The position numbers and the translations under genes are program-made. Shown piece by piece: positions 8,605 to 10,940 of a stretch of DNA of 11,497 nucleotides (the first letter of the stretch is position 1; the number at the start of each line of letters is the position of its first letter). The notes under the pieces were generated by a model. The model was given only the letters and a program-made list of their open reading frames with translations, had not been told where the DNA came from and ran no database searches. The DNA is from an uncultured Candidatus Competibacteraceae bacterium (GTDB taxonomy: Bacteria; Pseudomonadota; Gammaproteobacteria; Competibacterales; Competibacteraceae). Location of the stretch: assembly GCA_937872125.1 (NCBI GenBank), contig CALMNY010000484.1:1-11497 (forward strand). The letters run 5' to 3'.

Positions 8605-8615
8605 TGGCCTATGTT
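8586..8615. promoter_or_regulatory. Operator-like repeats overlapping the vapBC promoter
   Basis: A perfect 12-bp palindrome GCCAGGCCTGGC (8586-8597) sits between the -35 and -10 boxes. Two tandem 11-bp units follow, TGGCCTATGCT (8594-8604) and TGGCCTATGTT (8605-8615), with 10 of 11 bases identical and a spacing of one helical turn. They cover the -10 box and the predicted start site, where VapB-VapC complexes typically bind to repress their own operon. Confidence 0.6.
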
Positions 8616-8634
8616 TTCTGTTGGAGGGGTCACC

Positions 8635-8883
8635 ATGTCAAGTCAAGTTGCTGAACGCCGCGCCCGTCTGTTCCGTAACGGTCGTAATCAGGCCGTGCGC
8701 ATCCCCCGTGAATTCGAATTGCCGGGCCATGAAGTGGTCATCCGCAAGGAGGGCGACCGCCTGATCGTAGAGCCGGTTAGGAAACCTGGCGGATTAGCTG
8801 AATTACTGGCCTCCTGGGAACCGTTGGAGGAAGAATTTCCCACCATTGAAGATCCACCCGTGCAACCCGAGGACATTTTTTAA
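8635..8883 (+). CDS. vapB: VapB-type antitoxin
   Basis: An 82-aa antitoxin that should neutralise the adjacent VapC and repress the operon. Residues about 11-48 (LFRNGRNQAVRIP, then FELPGHEVVIRKEGDRLIVEP) form a SpoVT/AbrB-type DNA-binding fold of the VapB/VagC kind. The proline- and acid-rich tail (LEEEFPTIEDPPVQPEDIF) is the usual toxin-wrapping part. The ATG at 8635 has GGAGG 7 nt upstream. An earlier in-frame ATG at 8611 coincides with the predicted transcription start and has no ribosome site. The stop is 1 nt before the vapC start. Confidence 0.92.
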   Translation: MSSQVAERRARLFRNGRNQAVRIPREFELPGHEVVIRKEGDRLIVEPVRKPGGLAELLASWEPLEEEFPTIEDPPVQPEDIF

Positions 8884-8884
8884 T

Positions 8885-9319
8885 ATGGCCGGCCCGTACT
8901 ACTTGCTCGACACCAACATTTTGTCGGCCGTGGTGAAGCAACCGGCGAGTCTGCTGGCGCGACGCATCGCCATGATGAATCGCGAGGATTATTGCACCAG
9001 CCTGGTGGTGGCCTGTGAACTGCGCTACGGCGTGCTCAAGAAGGGTTCACCGAGTTTGGCTGCAAAAGTGGACCAACTGTTTATGCGAGTCGAAGTGTTG
9101 CCCTTGGAAGCGTTGGTTGATCTTCATTACGCAGAAATACGGGTCGCGCTGGAAAAAATGGGCCAGCCGATCGGCCACAATGACCTGCTGATCGCCGCTC
9201 ACGCCCGCGCCCTGGGGTTGACGCTGGTCACCGACAACGTGCGTGAGTTTTCCCGCGTGCCGGGATTACGGGTCGAAAACTGGCTGGCTGAATCCGCCGG
9301 AACCGGGCCTGAACTGTGA
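8885..9319 (+). CDS. vapC: VapC-type PIN-domain ribonuclease toxin
   Basis: A 144-aa PIN-domain toxin, a metal-dependent endoribonuclease that usually cuts tRNA or rRNA sites when free of its antitoxin. The four conserved acidic residues are all present: Asp9 (LLDTNILS), Glu45 (ACELRYG), Asp100 (GHNDLLIAAHA) and Asp117 (TDNVREFSR). The protein is therefore predicted active. The ATG at 8885 is 1 nt after the vapB stop, and the GAGG before it lies inside the vapB tail. The longer in-frame start at 8846 would overlap vapB and add residues before the canonical PIN start, so I reject it. The TGA stop overlaps the GTG start of the next gene. The cellular RNA target cannot be read from the sequence. 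Confidence 0.93.
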   Translation: MAGPYYLLDTNILSAVVKQPASLLARRIAMMNREDYCTSLVVACELRYGVLKKGSPSLAAKVDQLFMRVEVLPLEALVDLHYAEIRVALEKMGQPIGHNDLLIAAHARALGLTLVTDNVREFSRVPGLRVENWLAESAGTGPEL

Positions 9320-10534: not shown

Positions 10535-10690
10535 TCAGCGCGACTGCCGCCATTCGGCGCTTTCCTGCCGCAACCGGCTGCGAACCCGGTTCCGCTCTGC
10601 TGTTTTGGACTTCTGGTGCATGCCACCCTTGCGCAGGATCGGCGCGGTGGCGACCGGGTTGCGGCGTGACCGCACGATGATTTTCTCCAT
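10535..10690 (-). CDS. 51-residue very basic protein, unrecognised family
   Basis: A small minus-strand gene. It starts at ATG 10690 with GGAGAG at 10697-10702, 6 nt upstream, and stops with TGA at 10535-10537. The product has 15 Lys/Arg and only 4 Glu in 51 residues. It contains RSRRNPVATAPILRKGGMHQ near the middle and an Arg-rich C-terminal helix-like part (TAERNRVRSRLRQESAEW). This composition suggests binding to RNA, ribosomes or DNA, but I do not recognise the family. It has no signal peptide or membrane segment. Support for reality is the strong ribosome site, a dedicated near-consensus promoter and a structured leader with terminator upstream, and neat convergence on the DUF2782 gene with a 13-nt gap. 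A short GC hairpin (10528-10542) overlaps its stop. Confidence 0.72.
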   Translation of the reverse strand: MEKIIVRSRRNPVATAPILRKGGMHQKSKTAERNRVRSRLRQESAEWRQSR

Positions 10691-10710
10691 GATGTTCTCT
10701 CCAAATGCAA

Positions 10711-10747
10711 AAAAACCCTGGATGACGGGTTGTCACCCAGGGTTTTT
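10711..10747 (-). terminator. Intrinsic terminator / attenuator hairpin in the small-gene leader
   Basis: The GC-core arms CCCTGG/CCAGGG (10737-10742 with 10716-10721) are extended by five A-U pairs outside and by TGAC/GTCA inside, around a 5-nt loop with one A-C mismatch. In the minus direction the stem is followed by seven Ts (10715 to 10709), then 6 nt later by the ribosome site of the 51-residue gene. In the plus direction it is followed by five Ts, so it could also stop readthrough from the DUF2782 gene. Its place between a strong promoter and the ribosome site suits premature termination control. Confidence 0.8.
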
Positions 10748-10807
10748 CCAGATCGGAAAACAGGCTCGGAAGACAACCAGGGCCTTCCGGAGACCGCCCG
10801 AAAGGCG

Positions 10808-10837
10808 TCACATGATGGTGTGTTCTGATAGAAGCAT
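10808..10837 (-). CDS. Nine-codon leader peptide (candidate)
   Basis: The ORF starts at ATG 10837 and reads MLLSEHTIM before TGA at 10808-10810. GGGAGG (10845-10850) lies 7 nt upstream, one of the best ribosome sites in the window. The start and stop codons fall within the two arms of a 7-bp inverted repeat (10808-10814 and 10835-10841), so translation would open or block that helix. The composition does not point to a single amino acid as in trp or his leaders. Too short to be supported by anything except context. Confidence 0.5.
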   Translation of the reverse strand: MLLSEHTIM

Positions 10838-10911
10838 GTGAAAACCTCCCGTGCACTGGAGTGGCGTGAATCGCCGATAAATTAAAACGCGAATTCCAGA
10901 AAAGCATTCAA

Positions 10912-10940
10912 AATATAGGCGACTTTGCCACGCTTGTCAA
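10912..10940 (-). promoter_or_regulatory. Near-consensus sigma70 promoter on the minus strand
   Basis: Reading the minus strand, TTGACA (10940-10935) is a perfect -35 box, followed after exactly 17 bp by TATATT (10917-10912), one base from the -10 consensus. Transcription should start near 10905. The promoter points away from the TRAP binding protein gene and into the leader of the 51-residue gene. Confidence 0.85.

Follow-up and report, generated by a model that had tools for sequence, protein, structure and literature searches.

A putative ribosome-mediated attenuator of the rtcB RNA-repair operon, standing before a microprotein gene in a Competibacteraceae genome

We analysed a window of 11,497 nt, contig C484 of the draft genome G000 (553 contigs, 80.7% complete) of an uncultured Candidatus Competibacteraceae bacterium. 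The original prediction had described, on the minus strand, a promoter, GGGAGG with a 9-codon ORF, a series of hairpins, an intrinsic terminator with T7, GGAGAG and a 51-codon ORF; on reading the letters of the window we found every one of these parts in its place. They are listed below in the order of transcription, with the pairing segments numbered 1 to 6.

10912..10940, minus strand: sigma-70-type promoter TTGACA-17-TATATT (TTGACA at 10940-10935, 17-nt spacer, TATATT at 10917-10912)
10845..10853, minus strand: segment 1, the leader ribosome-binding site CACGGGAGG, with GGGAGG at 10850-10845
10808..10837, minus strand: leader ORF MLLSEHTIM* (9 codons, ATG to TGA), from the sequence
10797..10806, minus strand: segment 2, beginning 1 base past the leader stop codon (2:3 stem in the window, p 0.04)
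10782..10791, minus strand: segment 3 (TCCGGAAGGC), partner of segment 2 (ON) or of segment 4 (OFF)
10765..10778, minus strand: segment 4 (GGTTGTCTTCCGAG), whose GGTTGTC is complementary to GACAACC of the terminator
10728..10734, minus strand: segment 5, GACAACC, within the 5' arm and loop of the terminator
10709..10747, minus strand: intrinsic terminator, segments 5:6, with T7, from sequence and folding
10697..10702, minus strand: GGAGAG, ribosome-binding site of the microprotein gene, from the sequence
10535..10690, minus strand: gene for a basic microprotein of 51 aa (family RNPVAxAPILRKGGxHxKS), from homologues and a profile

A promoter, a Shine-Dalgarno sequence (SD) and a short ORF ahead of an intrinsic terminator, the arrangement that marks the attenuator class, are found in the window element and in its relatives. 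The terminator with its flanks folds at −27.4 kcal/mol (z −5.3) and the antiterminator GGUUGUC:GACAACC at −20.8 kcal/mol (z −3.3); 18 nt separate the terminator from the microprotein gene. Against shuffled sequences, the window's own pairings reached p 0.045 for 1:2 (−12.5 kcal/mol), p 0.154 for 3:4 and p 0.025 for 4:5. The leader, which had been put forward as a functional unit, is not a chance arrangement: its 216 nt fold more stably than 200 of 200 shuffles (z −4.7), and mean column identity is 79% among 12 aligned leaders of the family (Competibacteraceae, Candidatus Contendobacter and Competibacter). The ATG start, the stop codon and the 9-codon length of the leader ORF are kept in all 12, and the ORF is free of internal gaps across the alignment. 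The attenuator in the window looks real. The four aligned leaders of the Competibacter genus have largely lost the 7-bp 4:5 pairing, and their T-run is broken.

The 51-codon ORF, proposed earlier as an unknown microprotein gene, turned out to be conserved: counting G000, a homologue is present in 18 of 40 genomes from the order. At most of the homologue loci printed, the microprotein gene lies directly after rtcB, the gene for an RNA ligase; the RtcB C-terminus, recognised by eye, was confirmed with PF01139. Matches to a 22-nt leader motif (at most 3 mismatches) occurred in 15 of the 40 genomes, 13 of which proved on inspection to hold true leaders; the matches in G001 and G009 and a second one in G007 were judged not to be leaders, and one extra leader, L110, was contributed by a covariance model. 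In 10 of these 13 family genomes the leader stands directly before rtcB, which speaks against the original prediction on one point, namely that the attenuator is dedicated to a single microprotein gene. In the other three (G000, G003 and G017) the leader precedes the microprotein gene and rtcB is absent in between. Since three genomes share this kind of arrangement, an artefact of the fragmented draft is unlikely. G017 retains remnants of both ends: the rtcB 5' leader on one side and, on the other, the 3' end of rtcB together with the intergenic sequence.

We obtained a similar picture from 58 loci in named genomes, which were not de-duplicated and include a few from sister assemblies: rtcB or a piece of it adjoins the microprotein gene in 40 (35 upstream, 5 downstream), and a gene of about 315 aa, here called X, precedes the microprotein gene in 13. 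By tblastn, all that is left of rtcB next to an intact microprotein gene is a C-terminal scrap at L123 (the L247 contig), L124 (the L184 contig), L192 and L240, and a longer C-terminal remnant at L239; scraps at contig ends were left out of the count. Because these local remnants lie beside intact microprotein genes, the microprotein seems to have persisted after decay of the local rtcB, and to have done so more than once. At the level of sequence, gene orders and remnants demonstrate both the operon linkage and the loss of rtcB. The ancestrally regulated gene is rtcB, and the microprotein is a downstream member, closing an operon of the order rtcB-(X)-microprotein; judged against its relatives, the arrangement in the window is the outcome of rtcB loss from the locus, which leaves the switch before the microprotein gene only.

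Several other arrangements were seen. G000 carries two further rtcB genes elsewhere in its genome, one of which (L043, contig C42) is preceded by genes for an AAA_33 kinase-like protein and Thg1. In Thiocystis, Thiorhodococcus and Imhoffiella (L147, L149-L152) the order is reversed, with the microprotein gene before rtcB. At L333 (G276:C20:49300-53300) rtcB is found 1.9 kb downstream of the microprotein gene, and an open frame of about 425 codons separates the two; the microprotein gene stands behind a terminator but has no leader that satisfies the leader rule given below. A long, intein-like insertion, in frame, interrupts rtcB at L098 and G014:C101, where the open frames measure 762 and 741 aa.

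A microprotein profile matched 900 protein clusters (the best 120 are listed), the 58 loci in named genomes and 27 of 369 genomes of the class. In the order to which G112 belongs, called Thiotrichaceae here and including Thiolinea and Thiothrix, it matched 43 of 63 genomes. Residues invariant throughout the family back its coding, as does the close pair L010/L016, in which few amino-acid changes accompany the silent ones (dN 0.019, dS 0.26); comparisons with the window microprotein gave weak coding support (dN/dS 0.24 to 0.82). Searches of Pfam and NCBIfam returned no match over the cut-off for the microprotein, and for seven distant members matches far below it; a sequence search of the PDB gave one match at chance level. 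Protein X has 1946 homologues at E≤1e-4 among 8000 candidates scored, and found no convincing relative in Pfam, NCBIfam, PADLOC or the PDB. PADLOC and PHROGs gave nothing convincing for either protein, and no X was found on plasmids. In an alignment of X (A4: L196, L197, L143 and nine others) the motifs ALIEEIQSDW and PPRSLYTxLPRKF are conserved. For the microprotein, which the original prediction suggested may be a ribosome- or RNA-binding factor, the sole functional clue found is its link to the RNA ligase operon, which would place the protein in RNA repair; X and the 51-aa protein are two large uncharacterised families tied to RNA repair.

Leaders of the same build precede the rtcB operon in Competibacteraceae, in Thiotrichaceae and in other gamma-proteobacteria. 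We defined a leader by rule, as an SD and an ORF of 6-16 codons whose stop lies 40-105 nt before an intrinsic terminator, and applied the rule to 81 upstream regions: 71 before operons led by rtcB or X, and 10 added by hand (the window, seven family leaders, L204 and L205). A terminator of some kind was called in 73 of the 81, and a leader in 41 of the 71 and 4 of the 10. After removal of repeated peptides and, in the same step, of L138 (terminator mis-called), these 45 gave 39 distinct leader peptides, and removal by 8-mer similarity left 30 non-redundant leaders; L242 was kept among them although its stem looks mis-registered, and five of the 12 Competibacteraceae leaders in the alignment, which the rule did not call, are absent from them. 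Shuffles of the leader-bearing regions satisfied the rule in 9% of cases, and in 1.9% when an SD of at least 5 bases was required, an SD that 23 of the 39 distinct leaders possess. A promoter score of at least 9.5 was reached upstream of 23 of 28 non-redundant leaders (two of the 30 had too little upstream sequence) versus 5% of shuffles.

No leader was called in the 30 best-scoring regions before the other, longer RtcB type (about 480 aa), and 28 of 30 regions before E. coli-type rtcB genes not directly joined to a microprotein gene were likewise without one; the two exceptions belong to genomes (G071 and G341) that carry the microprotein elsewhere. The G276 region described above (L333) is one of these 30. 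Some rtcB-microprotein operons have no leader. Among the 369 class genomes, a covariance model built from the 12 family leaders had two clear distant matches, in G270 and G074; of the other 30 rows, the window's own aside, 15 cover the terminator part only and the longer ones are weak, though one (G341:C20) coincides with a leader called by the rule. In Candidatus Marithrix (L125, L138) a terminator follows the promoter almost directly before rtcB, by eye with no room for a leader ORF.

We analysed the alternative structures in the 30 representatives. A stem was sought with its first base between −2 and +8 nt from the leader stop codon, and in 27 of them this base falls at −2 to +2. Complementarity was better than in shuffles (p<0.05) for 2:3 in 24 of 30, for 3:4 in 20 and for 4:5 in 23; the Fisher-combined p values are extreme, for sequences that are related and not independent. 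Covariation was assessed in an alignment of 21 Thiotrichaceae leaders (A5), with the structures written from inspection of that alignment. In the ON set (2:3 and 4:5), 91.4% of cells are paired and double-change cells number 22 versus 8.4 in shuffles; in the OFF set (3:4 and 5:6), 90.6% are paired and double-change cells number 45 versus 15.5, and in neither case did any of 500 shuffles reach the observed count. When the structures were slid along the alignment, paired cells fell to 36-53% (ON) and 32-53% (OFF). Both comparisons are to be read with the caveat that kinship by itself can outdo the shuffles, and that structures taken from the very alignment being scored will outscore their slid versions. 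The covariation of the ON set is weak when counted by pairs changed on both sides (6 versus 4.3 in shuffles, reached by 47 of 500), and its pair types show no excess (18 versus 19.2). Column 125 covaries with both column 62, its antiterminator partner, and column 145, its terminator partner, as expected of a true switch. Terminator and antiterminator are mutually exclusive, as judged by covariation in Thiotrichaceae and, in the window, by complementarity and energy. Sequence comparison thus establishes the anatomy of the leader and, through covariation in Thiotrichaceae, its alternative structures. Translation-coupled transcription attenuation with a leader peptide, as the original prediction had it, is supported: the build is kept in relatives and both states covary in this sister group.

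The following mechanism can be proposed. Promoter, leader ORF, hairpins and terminator would be followed by rtcB, in some cases gene X, and the microprotein gene. A ribosome reaching the leader stop codon would cover segment 2, allowing 3:4 and the terminator 5:6 to pair (OFF); behind a ribosome halted earlier, segment 2 would stay free, 2:3 and 4:5 would pair and RNA polymerase would read through (ON). If the leader is not translated, the outcome would be mixed, on average intermediate. We folded the 30 leaders with the stretch under the ribosome blocked, at the stage before the 3' arm of the terminator is made. The mean antiterminator probability was 0.62 with an early ribosome, 0.21 with a late one and 0.38 with none. 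In 22 of 30 leaders the early value was the higher by more than 0.2, and in none was the late value higher by that margin, whereas shuffled controls (n=180) gave 11% and 10%; with two other footprint sizes, early exceeded late in 19 and 21 of 30 leaders and the reverse occurred in 0 and 1. For the window copy the values were about 0.8 early, 0.43-0.59 late and 0.64 without a ribosome, a weak to modest predicted switch. The models thus predict that an early halt turns the switch ON and that a ribosome near the leader stop turns it OFF; real termination and readthrough are what we infer.

We examined the leader peptides for the signal sensed. The 39 peptides share a length class and A-rich codons, but no residue or repeat is conserved across genera. 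Runs of control codons are absent, the longest stretch of identical residues being two, and the repeated codons for one amino acid that characterise his and trp leaders are lacking. Their amino-acid composition is largely what RNA rich in A and poor in G would encode; among the 20 amino acids, only Asn (37 versus 23.3 in shuffles, p 0.003) and Gln (p 0.019) exceed composition-matched shuffles, with p values uncorrected for 20 comparisons. The idea that the leaders present a panel of NAN codons (second base A) was not supported, A at position 2 not being enriched (p 0.31), and a tRNA panel is not demonstrated. In the Competibacteraceae leader ORFs (alignment A2; window 10808-10837) third codon positions are near-fixed, with an entropy of 0.26 versus 1.15 and 0.88 at positions 1 and 2. 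This wobble-position conservation, the reverse of normal coding constraint, has a permutation p of 0.0006 in 12 related sequences and was not seen in the Thiothrix-like set (p 0.75).

One reading of these leaders is an amino-acid attenuator of the histidine type, which senses the charged tRNA of one amino acid. The Rfam model His_leader (RF00514) aligns with the window over its full length at 35.3 bits (36.1 and 33.9 bits in 2 of the 12 relatives searched), under its gathering cut-off of 49; CAC or GAA codons recur in Competibacteraceae, and Asn is enriched overall. The peptides nevertheless vary between genera and lack runs, and the genes downstream are rtcB, X and the microprotein, not biosynthetic genes, so we regard this reading as unlikely. 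A general decoding sensor is favoured over an amino-acid sensor, since the peptide changes from genus to genus and no single amino acid predominates in it. The signal is probably a general failure of decoding, such as general stalling, cut tRNAs, ribosome damage or translation inhibitors, and a broken-tRNA or stalling signal would suit an RNA-repair operon. Failure could also be reported at initiation: pairing of the SD (1:2) would then register loss of initiation, for instance through cleaved 16S rRNA. Such pairing is significant (p<0.05) in 16 of the 30 leaders, 11 of 30 lean ON without a ribosome (antiterminator above 0.5), and RtcB is said, in a passage of PMC9741440, to re-join truncated 16S rRNA; yet the mean antiterminator probability is lower without a ribosome than with an early-stalled one, which leans initiation failure towards OFF on average and makes this sensor quite improbable.

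The ORF might instead be incidental to an RNA element that binds a protein or ligand, whether a riboswitch or a site of autoregulation by RtcB or the microprotein. The UUGUCUUCCGAG segment is strongly conserved within Competibacteraceae, where the conserved codon positions are the third ones; on the other side, segment sequences vary between families while the ORF, the position of its stop codon and the order of helices stay, and the Rfam comparison, proposed with the original prediction, gave no family at the cut-off in the window, riboswitches and T-box included. We give this explanation very little weight. Equally remote is a terminator that merely ends a free small RNA, with the microprotein gene under another promoter: the terminator is strong and the sequence does not contradict a small RNA, but the same build stands before rtcB in many lineages, with an antiterminator that covaries in Thiotrichaceae.

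Taken as a whole, the element is likely a ribosome-mediated transcription attenuator of his/trp architecture that would control an RNA-repair operon in response to general decoding failure, rtcB having been lost in the window. The his attenuator consists of successive alternative hairpins with the terminator last. The leader resembles it and RF00514 in that such hairpins, ending in a terminator, follow a leader ORF; it differs in having no histidine run and a sub-cut-off Rfam score, and in controlling RNA repair genes. As in trp attenuation (part of PMC1183508), ribosome position would select between hairpins. The trp leader differs in having Trp control codons and four regions. Erm-type leaders, which sense a global slowdown of translation, would resemble the element in having no amino-acid specificity; according to part of PMC2965389, ermC is of this kind and acts on translation, whereas here a transcription terminator stands before rtcB. 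The rtcBA operon of Salmonella and E. coli is likewise a case of rtcB control, and excerpts of PMC7790460 report a response of rtcBA to tRNA fragments, which activate the Salmonella operon via RtcR. RtcR is a sigma-54 activator protein, whereas the present element is a cis RNA behind a sigma-70-type promoter, the sole type sought. Increases of rtcB and the next gene in Acinetobacter baumannii appear in parts of two further papers, 252-fold with tigecycline (PMC7652931) and 2.6-fold with minocycline (PMC9741440). The rtcB control that we met in print runs through the RtcR activator. Full-text searches, judged in part by title and covering sources other than subscription papers and preprints, found no paper on rtcB attenuation among those listed, and the word rtcB is absent from the main text of a broad terminator survey (PMC2965389). 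The mechanism class is known, but the kind of regulated gene and the kind of leader are new.

If decoding failure were reported by this switch, RtcB would help to repair the damage. It is conceivable, though we put it forward tentatively and somewhat short of even confidence, that an expendable leader ORF serves as a monitor of decoding as such, through which tRNA breakage or ribosome stalling induces the operon for its own repair (RtcB ligase, X and the microprotein), and that the microprotein represents a novel factor, acting in RNA repair or associated with the ribosome, which several lineages kept after discarding rtcB, some of them still under the switch. If so, stalled decoding itself would induce RNA repair without a dedicated sensor protein, and a cis decoding sensor would be a second answer, beside RtcR, to how bacteria time the synthesis of an RNA ligase.

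PIN toxins often have tRNA or rRNA as their cleavage target. About 1.2 kb from the element, at 8611-9319 on the plus strand, the window also carries a gene pair encoding a MazE-type antitoxin and a PIN-domain protein.
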